Assembly: GCF_000024185.1 (NCBI RefSeq)
Contig: NC_013790.1
Span: forward strand, 2,479,001 to 2,543,000
Source of the DNA: Methanobrevibacter ruminantium M1
GTDB lineage: Archaea; Methanobacteriota; Methanobacteria; Methanobacteriales; Methanobacteriaceae
DNA length: 64,000 nucleotides
Direction of reading: 5' to 3'
Shown here: piece after piece, positions 7,765 through 51,895 of the stretch
Numbering within the stretch: the first letter of the stretch is position 1
Layout of the letters: the number at the start of each line of letters is the position of its first letter
Notes under the pieces: model-generated
The model's input: only the letters and a program-made list of their open reading frames with translations
Told to the model about the DNA's origin: nothing
The model's database searches: none
Made by a program: the position numbers and the translations under genes

Positions 7765-7895
7765 TTTTTATAAATCCTTATGGAAAATCATTCTTTAAAT
7801 CGCTAAATTAAAATTTTTATAAATCCTTATGGAAAATCATTCTTTAAATCGCTAAATTAAAATTTTTATAAATCCTTATGGAAAATCATTCTTTA
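7765..7895. repeat. 49-bp tandem repeat duplicating the 3' end of the PIN gene
   Basis: Copies start at 7765, 7814 and 7863, exactly 49 bp apart. The third, partial copy contains the last six codons and stop of the PIN-like gene, so two extra near-perfect copies of that gene tail lie downstream of its stop. The repeats abut one another with no spacers, so this is not a CRISPR array. Confidence 0.92.
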
Positions 7896-8448
7896 AGAAT
7901 CTTTTGCAATCAATTTCATAAAGTTTATCAAAATACTCCCAAAAACTGTCCTGAGGTAACTTGATACCCCTTTCTATCATTGCAAGATATAATGAACTTG
8001 CAGTATCTTCTGAAATGATTTCCATTTCAAGGGCTTTAGTTAAAATCATAGAACTGGTAATGAGTCCTATGTCCAAGCTTTCAATATATTCCTCCACATC
8101 ACTTAAATTGTTACTTGCTATGATTCCATTATTCAAATGGGCCAATGCCATTGCTGCTGATTCACCAGACCCACAAATCTGACCTGCCTTACTCCAAAAT
8201 CCCTTTTCAATTGACTTATAAGCAAGGTACTGGGAAGAACCAAAAGGCATTTCTTGAATTTCTACAAATCCCTCCTTTAATTTTTTAAAATTTCTTTTTA
8301 CAAGTGAGGGAGTGTTTTCCTCCATAATCTCATTATAAACTTGCTCTGGAATAATTATTTTAGAAAATAGCTCTTCTAAAATATAAGTGGCATCAACAAA
8401 TAGGAAACATTCCAAACAGTCAGCATCATAGAAAACAGGCTTATTCAA
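7876..8448 (-). CDS. PIN-like (DUF3368-type) putative toxin
   Basis: This 190-residue protein looks like a PIN-domain protein of the DUF3368/VapC-like type. It begins with an acidic strand FYDADCLECFLF, has PEQVYNEIMEE, then GSGESAAMALA, the usual G-x-G-E-S-x-A-x-x-L-A segment carrying the second acid. Its end, KALEMEIISEDTASSLYLAMIERGIKLPQDSFWEYFD, follows the pattern that closes DUF3368 proteins. The third acidic position, normally D-D, reads ASNNLSDVEEY, so the active site may be altered. PIN proteins are Mg2+-dependent ribonucleases. Its start overlaps the ImmA/IrrE-like gene by 8 bp, which implies translational coupling. Confidence 0.68.
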   Translation of the reverse strand: MNKPVFYDADCLECFLFVDATYILEELFSKIIIPEQVYNEIMEENTPSLVKRNFKKLKEGFVEIQEMPFGSSQYLAYKSIEKGFWSKAGQICGSGESAAMALAHLNNGIIASNNLSDVEEYIESLDIGLITSSMILTKALEMEIISEDTASSLYLAMIERGIKLPQDSFWEYFDKLYEIDCKRFLKNDFP

Positions 8449-28300: not shown

Positions 28301-28426
28301 TTTAATTTAAAGTACTCCCTTAAAATTTATTCTTTAAATTATACTAATCCATTAAAATAAACTCTTTTTCTTTTATTTTTATATTTTTTACTAATTCTTA
28401 TGTATTTTAATAATTCTATAATCATT

Positions 28427-28530
28427 AACTATTTTTCCAATCCAAATCATCACTATCCAAAGATAAGCTATTAAACTATTTTTCCAATCCAAATCATCAC
28501 TATCCAAAGATAAACCATTTAACTATTTTT
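28427..28530. repeat. 47-bp tandem repeat
   Basis: Two nearly identical 47-bp units start at 28427 and 28474 (AACTATTTTTCCAATCCAAA and so on), and a third partial unit starts at 28521. The region lies 170 bp downstream of the Lrp gene and shows no open frame. Confidence 0.88.
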
Positions 28531-28683
28531 GCAATTTTCGACCCAAAAATCTAAAAACTGTCTAAAAATAATACTAAAACAATCAAATGTAATAATCAAA
28601 ACTAAAACTATATAAAAGATTTTTATAAATATATTAAAGTGTATCGTTTATAATAGAAAATTATATTAAAGAAATTAATAGAA

Positions 28684-29849: not shown

Positions 29850-30045
29850 AGACCTAGTTAATATAAGGTTTATTAATCTCTTTTTAATAGTATTCTATAG
29901 ACTTAGTCAATATCAGGCCTATTAAACTGTTTCTAATAGTAATTCCAGACTTAGTCAATATTAGGCCTATTAAACTGTTTCTAATAGTAATTCCAGACTT
30001 AGTCAATATTAGGTCCATTAAACTGTTTTTAATAATTAAAAAAAA
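29850..30045. repeat. 48-49 bp tandem repeat, four copies
   Basis: Copies of AGACTTAGTCAATATTAGGC-type sequence start at about 29850, 29899, 29947 and 29995. The middle copies are nearly identical; the outer ones have diverged. Units abut without spacers. The array lies 100 bp downstream of mptA. Confidence 0.88.
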
Positions 30046-30114: not shown

Positions 30115-30136
30115 GATTAAATTAAAAAATTTAATC
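30115..30136 (-). terminator. hairpin at the 3' end of the zinc-ribbon gene
   Basis: GATTAAATT and AATTTAATC form a 9-bp perfect stem around AAAA, overlapping the stop codon; on the minus strand it is followed by a U-rich run (A-rich at 30088-30105). Confidence 0.7.
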
Positions 30137-30412
30137 CTTAGCCCATCTTTTTAACATAGGAAATACTTCATTCATCATTTTAGAAGCTTCTTCCTTGTCC
30201 ATCTCCGGATGAACCTCTACCATCTTTTCAATGCAGAAATTCATCATTTCTTCCATAGTCATATCTGAAGTGAATTCACCATCCTTAAAGCAATAGATGC
30301 AGTACTCATCGTTTTTAGAACCGTCTGCATTGGTTCCATAGAGTTCTTCAGTCATAGGCATTGCACAAGATTGACAAAACTTTTGATTTTCGAAATTTTC
30401 CATAAATATCAT
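30131..30412 (-). CDS. small zinc-ribbon protein
   Basis: A 93-residue protein (90 if ATG 30403 is used) with a putative zinc ribbon: FCQSCAMPM, then NADGSKNDEYCIYCFKDGEF, the pattern of the zf-ribbon_2 family of short proteins. The C-terminal half is helical (MTMEEMMNFCIEKM, EASKMMNEVFPMLKR). The role of the family is unknown. Both ATG codons have a possible ribosome binding site (TAAGGA for the first, a weak TGAT for the second), so the start is open. It is the last gene of a minus-strand cluster that begins with NADAR at 34144. Confidence 0.85.
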   Translation of the reverse strand: MIFMENFENQKFCQSCAMPMTEELYGTNADGSKNDEYCIYCFKDGEFTSDMTMEEMMNFCIEKMVEVHPEMDKEEASKMMNEVFPMLKRWAKD

Positions 30413-30517
30413 TTTCCTTAATAAATCTATACACTTATATTAATCAAGATAATATAAATCTTTTTTCCAAGACCATATGAAAAGTATTTTTAAAAAATCC
30501 TCTCCTAAAAATTCTAT

Positions 30518-30577
30518 CCTTTCTTGATAGAATCTATAACTAAAAATAATATTAGCCTTTCTTGATAGAATCTATAA
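30518..30577. repeat. 38-bp tandem duplication of the glycosyltransferase tail
   Basis: A 22-bp segment at 30556-30577, inside the last codons of the glycosyltransferase gene, recurs without a mismatch at 30518-30539, downstream of its stop. Confidence 0.9.
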
Positions 30578-31736
30578 TCAAATCAATACCATTTAGTGAT
30601 TTTAACTTATCTCCGATTGATTTGGAATTATTCCTAAAAGAGTCATCCTTAATGATTTTTTCACTTTCAGATTTGATAATCTCCCCTTTAAAATCAGTAA
30701 TTTCCAATATTTTACCTGCATCAACCTTTTCAACTGATTTTCCATTATAAATCCGTTCAAAGACTCTTCCAGGACAAATCAATTGAGGAACTCCATAAAT
30801 AAATCCATCAACCACACTGTTTTGACCTCCATGATTGATAAAGAGAACAGATTCATTTAAAAGCTTGGAGAAATCCCAGCGCTTATCAATATGAATATTA
30901 TCAAAATCTGACTTCTCAAGTCCAAGAGATGCAATATAAACTTGATATTCTGTTCCAATAAATGCATCTTTGATTTCTTTAAACATCTTGTTTGGAGATA
31001 TAGTCCCACTTCCCATATAGACTAAAATTGCATTCCTCTCATCTGTAGAATCCATATTTTCATCATTTTCCTTAAAGACAGAGCCTTCATTAAGATTCTT
31101 CCAAGTTCCACAGAAAGTCACATTATCCTTATCGATTGGCTCCAATTCATAAATGCTTGGAACAAATGACTTATCCGCCCAATTAAAAAGATCCAATGAG
31201 GAATTAACATCTGGAAGATTATTTTCTCTTAAAAACTTCTTTAGTCCTTTAGCATATTTGGGATTAGAAGCATATTCAGTTTGTGTAGGATAGCTTATAG
31301 TTGCATATAATCTCTTATTTTCAAGTTTAGAAGCCAATATTGCAGAGATATTAAATTCAGAGTAAATTATGTCAGGATTGAAGTCATTGATTGCCTTTCT
31401 TATATTAGCCACACTTTCACACAAATACTTATAGTCAATGTTTCCGGTAAAATGGAGAACATCTTCAAAGCTTCCTACATTCTTCCTTTCAATGATTCCC
31501 AATTTCTGTGCAATAGGAAAGGTCCTAGTTGCAATTGGCTTAGGAAGTCCAAGAGGCATAGGAACATTCAAATAATAATTTTTTATCCCATCGATTGGCT
31601 TATAATTAATGTCTTCCGCCATGCAAGTAGCTACATCAATACCAGATGCCTTTAAAGCTTCAACAAGAGCTCTAGCTCTCCCATAAGGACCTGCAGTTTC
31701 AGCCATAGCTGACATAGAACAAACTAATACGTTCAT
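30552..31736 (-). CDS. GT1-like (UDP-glycosyltransferase fold) glycosyltransferase
   Basis: A 394-residue two-domain protein. The N-terminal half starts MNVLVCSMSAMAETAGPYGRARALVEAL-like with a Rossmann strand and acceptor-side loop. The C-terminal half has the donor-binding pattern of UGT/MGT enzymes: ILVYMGSGTISPNKMF, LLNESVLFINHGGQNSVVDG and IYGVPQLICPGRVFERIYNG (H-G-G-x-N-x-x-x-x-x-x-x-G-x-P). It would transfer a sugar from a nucleotide donor to a small molecule, lipid or peptide. It lies 155 bp downstream of the radical SAM gene on the same strand, so a role in modifying the same product is possible but unproven. Confidence 0.82.
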   Translation of the reverse strand: MNVLVCSMSAMAETAGPYGRARALVEALKASGIDVATCMAEDINYKPIDGIKNYYLNVPMPLGLPKPIATRTFPIAQKLGIIERKNVGSFEDVLHFTGNIDYKYLCESVANIRKAINDFNPDIIYSEFNISAILASKLENKRLYATISYPTQTEYASNPKYAKGLKKFLRENNLPDVNSSLDLFNWADKSFVPSIYELEPIDKDNVTFCGTWKNLNEGSVFKENDENMDSTDERNAILVYMGSGTISPNKMFKEIKDAFIGTEYQVYIASLGLEKSDFDNIHIDKRWDFSKLLNESVLFINHGGQNSVVDGFIYGVPQLICPGRVFERIYNGKSVEKVDAGKILEITDFKGEIIKSESEKIIKDDSFRNNSKSIGDKLKSLNGIDLIIDSIKKG

Positions 31737-31868
31737 AAATATGCCTCAACACTAGAATGATATTTAATTATTAATCAAATATCATATAAAAGGTTTTTCA
31801 AAAGTTAATCTATCCCCAAAATCTTAAAACTTAACTTCACTAGCCTAATTTGACCAAAAAAAAGTAAT

Positions 31869-31930
31869 CTTTTTCAAAATGCTTTGAATAATTATATTCC
31901 CTTTTCAAAAATGCTTTGAGAAATTAGATT
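31869..31930. repeat. 32-bp tandem duplication at the radical SAM gene tail
   Basis: CTTTTTCAAAATGCTTTGAA and following bases at 31869-31898 repeat the gene-internal segment 31901-31930 with a few changes; the copies flank and include the stop codon region. Confidence 0.75.
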
Positions 31931-33229
31931 CATATCCTTATCAAATTTCTGAACAAGAAGATGTGTTGAATAATCTTCTTCGACTATATTATAAGTCTTA
32001 CCAGTTTTTCTAAGATTAATATGGACTACAAAATCAGATGGACAAACATCATACGCATTTGATAAAATATATTTTGAATCTAATTTATAGCCATGATCTT
32101 TAAAATTAACATAAAAATTTTTTAAATGATTTAAATCATGACAGAAATACTTAAATTCAATATATTCCCATTTATTTTCTTCCCATAACTCCAATGCATG
32201 TTTTTCCTTATCAATTTCATCTAAACCTTCAAAAGATTTTACTAGATTATTCATAATACTCAAATCAAAACAAGAATCATCTAATCTATTTTCCAAATAA
32301 CCAACAGGGTAAAAAATTACAAAGAAGCCATATTTTAAATCCAAATAATCATAACACTCCTGTAATTTAGAAATAACGACTTCCTTTAAAAAGAACAGGT
32401 CGTCATTAAATATAGAATCGTATTCAAATAAGAATTCAAATTTTTTATTAAAGGAATTTGGGAATTTCTTTATATGAAAATCCAAAATCGGAGGAACCTT
32501 AAGCATAATCTCAGATAAGATATAATCCTCTACAAATTTAATCTTATTTTCATATAGCCTTTCATCAAAATCTTTTTTATTTTCCAGAGCAACACGAGAG
32601 ATTTTTCTGTGTTTAGCAATCTCCACATAATTAAAGACATCTATATTAGAAAAGCCCATATCTTTAAGAGTCCGATAATTTGTTTTAACATCATCTACGG
32701 TATTTAACTTAGGAATTTTAGGAACCCGAACTCTAATCCCATCAGATCCAACTTTATCAATAAGAAATTTTAAGTTTGATAAGAATAATTCATAATCTCC
32801 TTTTGTATATAATTCATACCTATTTTTATTCATATCCTTTGTATCAACTATAAAAAAATCAATATAGTCAATAATATCCCTTAAAATATCCTTTTTAACT
32901 GAAAGTGATGTTTCCAATGTGAATTTCCAACCGGTTGATTTATATTTCTTAATAAATTCCTTGATAAATTCATGATAGAGCAATGGCTCCCCTCCACCAA
33001 AAACCAAGCCTCCGCCAGTTGATAAAAAATAGATATTGTCTCTTTTAACTTCTTCATATAATTCATCAACAGCATAAGTTTTAGGTTCAAGGGAACCGTC
33101 CCAAGAAAAAGGATTGAAACAATATGCACATCTTAAAGGACAACCCATGGACCCAATTAAAGTTGAAACACCATCCCCGTCAGTATAAGTCCTTAATCGT
33201 GAAATATTTGAAACATTTATTTTATACAT
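31892..33229 (-). CDS. radical SAM protein, PflA-like N-terminus with unknown C-terminal domain
   Basis: This 445-residue enzyme carries the radical SAM cluster motif C-x3-C-x2-C as GCPLRCAYCFNP (Cys30, 34 and 37) followed by GGGEPLLYHEFI and FTLETSLS, as in activating enzymes of the PflA group. The first 220 residues form the catalytic barrel. The remaining 225 residues match nothing I know and hold four scattered cysteines, not a clear SPASM motif. ATG 33229 is chosen because GTGATGAAA is the ribosome binding site and contains the earlier in-frame GTG and ATG. The upstream gene encodes an 89-residue protein with its own C-x3-C-x2-C motif, a possible substrate or electron donor. The reaction is unknown. 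Confidence 0.85.
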   Translation of the reverse strand: MYKINVSNISRLRTYTDGDGVSTLIGSMGCPLRCAYCFNPFSWDGSLEPKTYAVDELYEEVKRDNIYFLSTGGGLVFGGGEPLLYHEFIKEFIKKYKSTGWKFTLETSLSVKKDILRDIIDYIDFFIVDTKDMNKNRYELYTKGDYELFLSNLKFLIDKVGSDGIRVRVPKIPKLNTVDDVKTNYRTLKDMGFSNIDVFNYVEIAKHRKISRVALENKKDFDERLYENKIKFVEDYILSEIMLKVPPILDFHIKKFPNSFNKKFEFLFEYDSIFNDDLFFLKEVVISKLQECYDYLDLKYGFFVIFYPVGYLENRLDDSCFDLSIMNNLVKSFEGLDEIDKEKHALELWEENKWEYIEFKYFCHDLNHLKNFYVNFKDHGYKLDSKYILSNAYDVCPSDFVVHINLRKTGKTYNIVEEDYSTHLLVQKFDKDMNLISQSIFEKGI

Positions 33230-33280
33230 TTTCATCACTTTTTCTTTAGAAATCTTAAAAATATTTTAATTCATAACAAG

Positions 33281-33432
33281 TAATTAAATAAATAGAAAAG
33301 AAATTACTTTAAATAATTTCTAAGCTAATAAATTAAAATAAATAGAAAAAAATTACTTTAAATAATTTCTAAGCTAATAAATTAAAATAAATAGAAAAAA
33401 ATTACTTTAAATAATTTCTAACCTAATATATT
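33281..33432. repeat. 49-bp tandem repeat, three copies, from the small Cys protein gene tail
   Basis: Three units share AAATAATTTCTAAGCTAATA at 33311, 33360 and 33409, exactly 49 bp apart. The last includes the final codons and stop of the CX3CX2C gene. The array fills the space between that gene and the radical SAM gene. Confidence 0.92.
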
Positions 33433-33687
33433 TTCATCAAGAAGACCATATTCTGATTTATCAAAATCGTCTGAAGAAAATATATTCTTAATATTTATAT
33501 TTTCACCAGCATTTTGTTTTTTCTCAAGTTCCTTATCCAAATATTCAAGTTCAGATTCACATTTAGGACAAGTTCCAGTGCAATCTCCTTGAAATGTACA
33601 CTCTACAGCCGTATACTCGATATTATTTTCATCTGCAATTTTTTGTCTAATATTTTTAAGCAACTCACATTTATCTTTTCCTTTCAT
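33418..33687 (-). CDS. small CX3CX2C protein next to radical SAM gene
   Basis: This 89-residue protein has five cysteines: Cys7, Cys30, and Cys36-x3-Cys40-x2-Cys43 in GDCTGTCPKCESELEYL. C-x3-C-x2-C is the spacing that holds a [4Fe-4S] cluster in radical SAM enzymes, but this protein is far too small to be one. The N-terminal 25 residues are a basic helix (CELLKNIRQKIADENNIEY), and the C-terminal 30 are Asn/Asp-rich and likely flexible, ending SEYGLLDENILG. I recall similar small proteins with a C-T-F-x-G-x-C-x-G-T-C-P-K-C core in gut bacteria, without a known function. It could be a peptide substrate, a cluster carrier or an electron donor for the radical SAM enzyme downstream. The NADAR gene ends 31 bp upstream. 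Confidence 0.8.
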   Translation of the reverse strand: MKGKDKCELLKNIRQKIADENNIEYTAVECTFQGDCTGTCPKCESELEYLDKELEKKQNAGENINIKNIFSSDDFDKSEYGLLDENILG

Positions 33688-33718
33688 AAAATCACAACTA
33701 TGTGATAAACTTTTAAAA

Positions 33719-34144
33719 TTATTCTCTTAATTCCTCTCTAATTCTCATTAAAGTCTTTCCTAACTGGTTTCTGCCCTTTCCTCTGCAAACACCCCAATAT
33801 TGATCATTCCAAGTGTTTCCTTCAATCAAGGTTGCATCGCCAGTTTCAAGCAATAATTTACGAATGTCTGGATTCTGTTCAAATTTAGCCTTACAGACTT
33901 CATACATTATATTGTCCTTGACTTCATTCCAATCTTCACGCAATTTTACCTTACGACCCAATCTTTTCGATTGCTTTGGAGTGACATTAGTAAATTTCAT
34001 TTTAGTCTCATCATCGAAGACCTTTTGAGCATGAAATGCTGCCTCTGTGTGAGGATAAAGTATTCCATCATATTCAACGTCACAAATATAAAAATTACTT
34101 AAAAACAGGTATTTTCCATCGAATCTGTCTATTTCATCTACCAT
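33719..34144 (-). CDS. NADAR family protein (YbiA-like)
   Basis: A 141-residue single-domain NADAR (DUF1768/YbiA) protein: FDGKYLFLSNFYICDVEYDG, YPHTEAAFHAQKVFDDE, VKDNIMYEVCKAKFEQNPDI and NTWNDQYWGVCRGKGRNQLG. Family members are N-glycosidases; plant and bacterial ones act on riboflavin intermediates, and others remove ADP-ribose from guanine in nucleic acid, often in conflict or defence settings. The active-site Glu and Trp-Gly positions look intact. It is the first gene of the cluster running to 30131. GGTGATAATATG is its translation start region. Confidence 0.93.
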   Translation of the reverse strand: MVDEIDRFDGKYLFLSNFYICDVEYDGILYPHTEAAFHAQKVFDDETKMKFTNVTPKQSKRLGRKVKLREDWNEVKDNIMYEVCKAKFEQNPDIRKLLLETGDATLIEGNTWNDQYWGVCRGKGRNQLGKTLMRIREELRE

Positions 34145-47736: not shown

Positions 47737-48429
47737 ACGTGAGAATTATTTATTTTAAAAACTTTATTTTACAACTAATTTTACATATTACAGTATAAAT
47801 AGTATATGCAATAATTAAGTAAACATCTTTTTTATGACACAATAGCTGTTTATTAAAGCATATAAGTTAAGAATATTGTTTTAAGTAACTTAAATCAATA
47901 TTCTTTATTATACTACTTAATTTTATATTCTTAAAAGTTTAAGACAGTTCTATAAACTTTTAACTAAAATTAAAACATAATTAAAAACTTAGAAAAACAG
48001 TTTTTTAACTTAAATTAAAAATATAGCCAGTCCTATAAACTTTTAACTGAAATATAAATATTAAAACAGCTTATTTAAAAATTAACCAAAATTTACTTAA
48101 CCAATATTTAATATTGCATTTAAACTAGAATTAAACTTTTAGAGATTGGAATAATTCAAAAAGGAATTAAACCCACAATTTAAATCACAAAAAATCGGAA
48201 TAATTCAAAAAGGAATTAAATCCACAATTTAAATCACAAAAAAATCGGAATAATTCAAAAAGGAATTAAATCCACAATTTAAATCACAAAAAAATCGGAA
48301 TAATTCAAAAAGGAATTAAATCCACAATTTAAAAATTAGATTTTCAAAAATAATTATTTTACAAAGATATTAGAATATTGACTTATTACCATATACTAAT
48401 TTTATACAACTATTTTTCGAAGTGATTAT
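47737..48429. other. long intergenic region with hairpin and tandem array
   Basis: AAGAATATTG (47869-47878) and CAATATTCTT (47896-47905) form a 10-bp stem with a further TTTAAGT/ACTTAAA pairing inside. CAGTTCTATAAACTTTTAACT at 47945 recurs at 48028 with one change. A four-copy array follows at 48148. GAAGTGAT near 48418 is the ribosome binding site of the next gene. Confidence 0.55.
48148..48340. repeat. 49-50 bp tandem repeat, four copies
   Basis: Units starting GGAATAATTCAAAAAGGAAT at 48148, 48197, 48247 and 48297 are almost identical (one ACCC/ATCC change and a variable A-run). There are no unique spacers, so it is not a CRISPR array. It lies upstream of the aCPSF1 gene. Confidence 0.95.
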
Positions 48430-50683: not shown

Positions 50684-51703
50684 ATGGTTACATATTCAGA
50701 ATCAGGTGTTGACATTGACCTTGAAGCATTGACTGTTTCTAAACTTGCTTCAAAATTAAAACCAACATTAGAATACAGAAATATCATTACTGACAGTGGA
50801 CATTTTGCAGCTTTAGTAGAACTTGGAGATAAGGCCATTGCAATGAGCACTGATGGTGTAGGGAGTAAAATCTTAGTGGCTAAAATGATGGAGAAATACG
50901 ATACCGTTGGAATCGACATGATTGCAATGGTAGTTAACGACATTCTCTGTGTAGGTGCTGAGCCTATAGCATTAGTGGACTATTTGGCAGTTGAAGAGCC
51001 AGATCCAAAAGTTGCTGAAGAGATTGCAGACGGATTAGTCAAAGGAGCTACCGAATCCAAAATCGCAATAATCGGAGGGGAAACAGCATCACTTCCAGGA
51101 ATTGTAAAGGATTTCGATTTAGCTGGAACCGGAATCGGCTTTGTAGACAAGGACAAAATTATCACTGGTGCAGACATCCAAGAAGGAGACATCTTAATCG
51201 GACTTAGAAGTAGCGGAATCCACAGTAATGGATTAAGCCTTGCAAGACGTGCAATATTCGAAGATGGAGGATTTACTGTCGATGACAAAATGCCTAATTC
51301 AGACACCACAATCGGTGAAGAATTATTAAAGCCAACCCAATTATATGTTAAAGCAATCATTGACCTTCTAGGACAAGGATTTAATATAAAAGGACTTGCT
51401 CATATGACTGGTGGCGGAGTAAACAACCTTTCAAGACTTAAAGATGGAATAGGCTTTGAAATCACTGATTATCCAGAACCTCAAGATATTTTCAAATTGA
51501 TTTACCAACAAGGAGTTCCTTTAGAGGAAATGTATAAGGTCTTCAATATGGGAATAGGATTTACAGTAATCGCAAGCCCTGAGGAAGCTGATGCAGTCCT
51601 TGAAGCATTAAATAAAAATATTGAAAGTTATATTGTTGGAAAAGTTATTGGCGAAGAGAAAATAGTTGTAAAAACCTTTGAAGGCACTGAAATAACTTAT
51701 TAA
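50684..51703 (+). CDS. purM: phosphoribosylformylglycinamidine cyclo-ligase PurM
   Basis: PurM closes the imidazole ring to form AIR, the fifth step of purine synthesis, using ATP. The 339-residue protein shows the family blocks [68 protein letters not shown] and [26 protein letters not shown] lies before the ATG. A 43-bp repeat built from its last codon, stop and 3' flank follows. Confidence 0.97.
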
Positions 51704-51810
51704 ACTTTAAAAGAATAATTAACTTTCAAAGAAAACTAAACCTATTAAGTTTAAAGAATAATTAACTTTCAAAGAAAACTAAACCTATTAAGTTTAAAGA
51801 ATAATTAATT
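51698..51810. repeat. 43-bp tandem repeat from the purM tail
   Basis: TATTAARYTTTAAAGAATAATT followed by AACTTTCAAAGAAAACTAAA occurs at 51698 and again 43 bp on, with a third, partial copy from about 51786. The first unit contains the last codon and stop of purM. Confidence 0.9.
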
Positions 51811-51895
51811 TTCTAATTATTAAAAAAGAACCAATTAAAACTTATTAATAATTAAAACACTAAAATTTCAGCATTAAGGAAATAGGAGGGAAAGA

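Follow-up and report, generated by a model that had tools for sequence, protein, structure and literature searches.

A putative leader-guided, RiPP-like radical SAM modification system in Methanobrevibacter ruminantium M1 and gut bacteria

The genome of Methanobrevibacter ruminantium M1 encodes a small five-cysteine protein and a radical SAM enzyme (rSAM) that, on good comparative evidence, appear to form a real and undescribed two-part system. We hypothesize, with a probability of about 0.6, that this is a RiPP-like modification system in which the five-cysteine domain serves as a leader that docks to a glycyl-activase-type rSAM, with the enzyme modifying glycines in the tail. The pair forms a coherent system across Archaea, Bacteroidota and Bacillota and is without a name in Pfam (models to 2025) and NCBIfam (June 2026), and no description of it was found by motif strings or by topic among open-licence full texts. 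If correct, this reading would extend glycyl-activase chemistry beyond radical enzymes to the modification of peptides and proteins, with substrates that include larger, partly exported proteins. Many copies come from organisms of the ruminant gut, a rumen methanogen among them, and the product could therefore be of consequence for the gut community.

The window analyzed here is a stretch of 64,000 nucleotides, bases 2479001-2543000 of the 2,937,203-bp single-contig genome. A first-pass annotation made from the sequence alone had described five minus-strand genes in part of it, and an ORF check together with Pfam and NCBIfam scans found their positions and domains to be as claimed (Table 1). 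The rSAM is 448 aa long with a GTG start or 447 aa with the ATG one codon downstream. A 49-bp repeat array had been reported between the small gene and the rSAM gene; it is indeed there, and reaches into the final codons of the small gene. The window holds ∼15 tandem arrays with periods of 38 to 54 bp, mostly intergenic (others lie, for example, at 7765-7896, 28423-28535, 29850-30034, 48148-48333 and 51694-51813), so that the array is no special feature of this locus; such arrays are apparently a habit of the M. ruminantium M1 genome. The two genes overlap in most archaeal relatives, which makes the 179-bp, array-bearing gap of the window look derived. The array had also been taken to make cotranscription uncertain, and it does lie between the two genes, but given the overlap in relatives it says little on that point.

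Table 1. Features of the small protein/rSAM locus, in window coordinates
Feature	Position	Strand	Details
Zn_ribbon_2 protein	30131-30412	minus	93 aa; PF12674, E 7e-32
GT1-like glycosyltransferase	30552-31736	minus	394 aa; PF06722, E 3e-9
Radical SAM enzyme (rSAM), glycyl-radical-activase-like	31892-33238	minus	PF04055, E 1e-13
rSAM core domain, residues 1-205	32621-33235	minus	CX3CX2C, DGxG, GGGE, DxK; one cluster only
rSAM C-terminal extension, Methanobrevibacter-specific	31895-32608	minus	homologues in few loci
Tandem array between small gene and rSAM gene	33282-33432	no strand	3.1 copies of 49 bp, 96% match
Small five-cysteine protein: putative leader/docking domain and short disordered tail	33418-33687	minus	89 aa
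Conserved Cys domain, residues 1-73 (C7, C30, C36, C40, C43)	33469-33687	minus	cysteine conservation
Small-protein tail, residues 75-89 (...SEYGLLDENILG): possible modification site	33421-33465	minus	model disorder, likeness to fusion-locus peptides
NADAR gene	33719-34144	minus	141 aa; PF08719, E 1e-32

Judged by sequence comparison, the small protein belongs to an unnamed family of ∼70-aa domains with five near-invariant cysteines, C7 followed by C30-x5-C36-x3-C40-x2-C43. The Cys36-x3-Cys40-x2-Cys43 motif noted at first is real but is just part of this site, as C7 and C30 are conserved to the same degree. Among the aligned residues of 161 distinct bacterial domain sequences, no exception occurs at C7, C30, C40 or C43, and three occur at C36. 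The five cysteines are also near-invariant in alignment A6, and their spacing is slightly shifted in domains fused to an rSAM. Because the motif sits inside a larger C-x5-C-x3-C-x2-C site, its likeness to the cluster spacing of rSAMs, to which the first-pass annotation had drawn attention, looks incidental. Pfam and NCBIfam scans returned no family for the domain, with hits to the small protein at chance level, and a PDB search by sequence and fold returned no relative of it. The AlphaFold model consists of two helices (residues 3-20 and 41-59) around a Cys loop, followed by a disordered tail (residues 75-89, pLDDT below 50).

Scanning genome contigs with an alignment of seven sequences yielded 99 relatives of the small protein, 80 of which were kept, at 77 loci. 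They occur in Methanobrevibacter, many Bacteroidales, Ruminococcus and other Clostridia, and many come from ruminant-gut assemblies. In nearly all bacterial cases the ∼70-residue domain is the N-terminal leader of a longer protein, frequently in tandem copies, and in Bacteroidales and Clostridia the tails of these leader proteins differ greatly from one another. In many Bacteroidales leader proteins the leader is followed by a hydrophobic stretch that contains a lipobox or a site resembling that of signal peptidase, beyond which the tail is disordered-looking or carries TonB_C, HIRAN or another domain; no such signal-peptide or lipobox segment was seen in archaeal members. A conserved leader and a variable core are encoded together with a putative modifying enzyme, as in RiPP pathways, and a modified peptide or protein is the best fit among the three roles first suggested for the small protein. 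The other two, a plain iron-sulfur carrier or an electron donor, leave the many paralogous tails unexplained.

The neighborhood search across archaea and bacteria found that the small protein and the rSAM are a conserved pair, as had been proposed, and the objection that the two genes might have no conserved pairing elsewhere fails in both Bacteroidales and Methanobacteriaceae. A separate search of 393 Bacteroidales genomes with each profile found rSAM and leader in the identical 15 genomes and neither in the other 378, with zero exceptions; the chance of such co-occurrence is ∼1e-27, a figure that the kinship of the genomes makes too optimistic. Six of 139 Methanobacteriaceae genomes have the rSAM, and the small gene is adjacent in all six. 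An rSAM lies near most leader loci of the genome-contig scan, and of 24 genomes searched further because many of their leader loci had none nearby, 21 encoded one somewhere. The three exceptions were G150, G158 and G151, the last of which has an intact leader and an rSAM remnant with damaged cysteines. A single rSAM may serve up to 11 leader proteins within one genome. No protease or exporter was consistently linked to the pair, and the only third neighbors near bacterial rSAMs were ones apparently shared through common chromosomal context.

Loss of the two components also appears to be coupled. G036 and G041 have damage in both the small gene and the rSAM, and G007 retains a frameshifted small gene next to a C-terminal remnant of the rSAM. 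We read these cases as the leader and its enzyme decaying together. These three decayed relatives could be taken to suggest that the pair in the window is itself a decaying or vestigial copy with no functional system there, as could the array between its genes and the presence of a second pair in the same genome (at ∼78-79 kb, a small protein 60% identical to that of the window beside a second, shorter rSAM). We consider this very unlikely for the window, where both ORFs are intact and keep all catalytic and Cys positions. The remaining Methanobacteriaceae genomes with the small protein are without the rSAM, and their readable copies have lost C43. Most C43-less copies share a tail ending LPPRYLDxLL, and the loss and this tail are probably one event in a single lineage. 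Such Methanobrevibacter homologues (L027, L029, L031-L035) often stand beside genes for UvrD/AddA-like or DinG-like helicases or SMC-like ATPases, and perhaps have a different role.

The partner enzyme has CX3CX2C in a partial TIM barrel, which places it in the radical SAM superfamily, and the CX3CX2C, DGxG, GGGE and DxK motifs are present in 57/57 family members. Across these members the only invariant cysteines are the three of the cluster; auxiliary-cluster cysteines of the SPASM or twitch type are not conserved. The core, modeled with pLDDT mostly above 85, has PFL-AE as its closest solved relative by sequence (3c8f/3cb8), and its closest fold is 3cb8, the structure of PFL-AE with SAM and a peptide substrate (TM 0.77 by target). 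In PFL-AE, Asp16 and Asn38 anchor the target glycine (PMC9326890). These residues align to the D of DGxG and to the N two residues past the third cluster cysteine, and their equivalents are invariant in all 57 rSAM members. Fold, CX3CX2C, DGxG and these peptide anchors are thus shared with PFL-AE and other glycyl-radical-enzyme activases (TIGR02494, TIGR02493), but the rSAM falls below every curated activase cut-off (best TIGR02494, 132.6 versus 174.35 bits), as do bacterial members against TIGR02494 (123 and 148 bits). The bacterial members, compact at ∼202 to 240 aa, also lack a ferredoxin insert, and the partner of the rSAM is the Cys leader; reading of neighboring ORFs recognized no glycyl radical enzyme. 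The C-terminal domain of the window enzyme had been described as of no known family, and its ∼235 residues do match nothing in Pfam or NCBIfam. Homologues of this extension were found only at L023, L024, L028 and L030 and their duplicates, with a remnant at L025, and its model is mostly of low confidence.

We took 35 leader-protein tails with mutual identity under 40%. Of these, 19 contain the motif [LIVM]xG[DE][VI], with 23 occurrences in all, whereas shuffles gave 3.1 +/- 1.6 (maximum 8, n=300), an enrichment of about sevenfold, and among the twenty possible central residues glycine alone is clearly enriched in this set. An earlier set of 44 tails gave a motif rate of 4.5 per 1000 residues, versus 0.34 in other ORFs at the loci. 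The tail consensus reads P-[LVI]-x-G-[DE]-[VI]-V-A-P-[ED], where positions beyond LxG[DE]V are mere preferences. The strict motif is present in 101/178 leader proteins; a looser hxGxh pattern is present in 166/178, a count that says little because hxGxh is common by chance. Within Methanobrevibacter, L024 has repeats of LLGDLIFEERLTGDVP, and two homologues without an rSAM retain LDG[DE][VI].

In three genomes (G640, G736 and G878) the Cys domain is fused, without a tail, to the C terminus of the rSAM, in what is probably a lineage derived from one event. Directly behind each fusion lies a gene for a leaderless peptide of 71 to 76 aa with repeated Gly motifs, such as PCTGLLEEYSALVGDIS or SPLEGLIEENFNGLIGDIDLPED. 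With the domain already on the enzyme, the substrate would no longer need a leader, in keeping with the leaderless peptides at these loci. The window tail, SEYGLLDENILG, resembles CTGLLEEYSALVGDIS of these peptides and fits the motif loosely, without a strict [LIVM]xG[DE][VI]. Together with G739, which has a stand-alone domain and a tail without glycine, this makes the substrate less certain for the window than for the family. A neighbor in G739 containing SLFGDIEIPED was not counted as evidence, since it seems to be a portion of a conserved but unrelated protein.

A glycine-centered motif beside an activase fold with conserved Gly-anchoring residues might also point to an rSAM that leaves a stable glycyl radical in the tail, making the small protein a stand-alone glycyl-radical protein like YfiD. 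This appears highly improbable, as the leader proteins scanned show no glycyl radical domain, the window tail looks disordered and an oxygen-sensitive radical makes little sense on the many leader proteins with export signals. The target could instead be the Cys domain itself, with the rSAM modifying its cysteines (for example, to thioethers) and the tails as passengers, a reading to which the near-invariance of the five cysteines and the loss of C43 in rSAM-less Methanobrevibacter homologues would lend weight. We regard it as unlikely: otherwise unrelated tails share a Gly-specific motif, the fusions are accompanied by leaderless Gly-motif peptides, the C43 loss looks like a single lineage event, and the rSAM has no conserved auxiliary-cluster cysteines, unlike sactisynthases, which do have them.

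The position of the domain at the rSAM C terminus in the three fusion genomes, like that of auxiliary-cluster domains, and its stand-alone form in the window and in G739 would also suit a dedicated Fe-S electron donor or auxiliary-cluster subunit that has no part as a substrate. Such a role is quite unlikely to be the whole explanation, in that an electron donor has no need of a lipoprotein, TonB or HIRAN tail, or of up to 11 paralogues per genome whose tails are diverse and partly exported. The domain could nevertheless supply a cluster while also serving as the leader. An rSAM without an auxiliary cluster and a leader with five cysteines raise this possibility for a cluster or a thiol alike, and we tentatively suggest that the leader may carry the auxiliary Fe-S (or thiol) center that its rSAM lacks, so that enzyme and precursor would share one catalytic machine. 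Its product would be a new glycine-centered modification, carried in gut bacteria by exported lipoproteins and other proteins and in methanogens by small proteins. Whether a precursor leader can provide a radical SAM enzyme with an auxiliary cluster could be tested cleanly on this pair.

In the RiPP-like modification system that we favor, the ∼70-aa five-cysteine domain would be the docking leader, with C30/C36/C40/C43 as the probable ligands of a metal or an Fe-S cluster, and would bring its attached tail, or in the fusions the enzyme itself, to the compact rSAM. Using SAM, the enzyme would abstract the alpha-carbon hydrogen from the glycine of the hydrophobic-x-Gly-[Asp/Glu]-[Val/Ile] motif, and this glycine, in a flexible tail, would keep a lasting modification. 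The signal-peptide-like or lipobox segment lies after the leader, so export in Bacteroidales would remove the leader and release a modified lipoprotein, and the window pair may be a one-substrate, cytosolic version of the system.

The organization has much in common with rSAM RiPP pathways (ranthipeptides, sactipeptides, epipeptides and CXXX-repeat targets), including a leader followed by a variable tail, precursor paralogues in tandem, a maturase that is usually the only one in its genome and repeats of a core motif. It differs from them in an enzyme without SPASM or twitch auxiliary cysteines, in a leader that is a ∼70-aa folded Cys domain and in the many tails that are lipoprotein-like or bear TonB_C, HIRAN or other domains. 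Long folded leaders are described for proteusins (PMC10858898), and the five-cysteine family resembles them in a leader that is folded and not short and disordered, whereas its own leader is a small domain of two helices and a Cys loop for which the PDB search found no relative.

The remaining genes of the locus are less firmly connected. No other copy of the pair has a homologue of the GT1-like or the zinc-ribbon gene as a neighbor, which rules out the five-gene operon as a unit and removes the ground for earlier suggestions that the glycosyltransferase acts on the same product and that the zinc-ribbon gene is part of the system. A gap of 31 bp separates the small gene from the NADAR gene upstream of it, which is the sole NADAR in the M. 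ruminantium M1 genome. Known NADAR proteins are ADP-ribose/riboflavin N-glycosidases. Outside the window, a NADAR gene adjoins the pair in one Bacteroides lineage, in which it comes before the rSAM and the leader carries a fused HIRAN domain. NADAR was not found beside other Methanobrevibacter pairs, nor beside most copies of the system, and no ADP-ribosyltransferase was seen among the neighboring ORFs read, so the association is suggestive but not general. We note that NADAR stands beside the pair at L096, L099, L100, L104 and L114, and that in the Bacteroides lineage it can be fused to a further, macro-like N-terminal region.

A few observations concern mobility. A 703-aa protein resembling a phage head-morphogenesis protein is encoded near the second M. 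ruminantium pair (L022, 8017-10128), and that pair may lie within or close to the remnant of a prophage. A phage origin of the family was considered and rejected: just one viral contig matched, and the record MT838070.1, labeled "Bacteriophage sp.", reads as a piece of Bacteroidales chromosome. The genes of this record (L203) include helicase-like, rSAM, leader-TonB and sugar-epimerase-like ones. A Segatella copri plasmid (NZ_CP137558.1; L204) carries two leader-TonB genes and an rSAM near transposase and mobilization genes, which suggests that the leader/rSAM cassette may be mobile.
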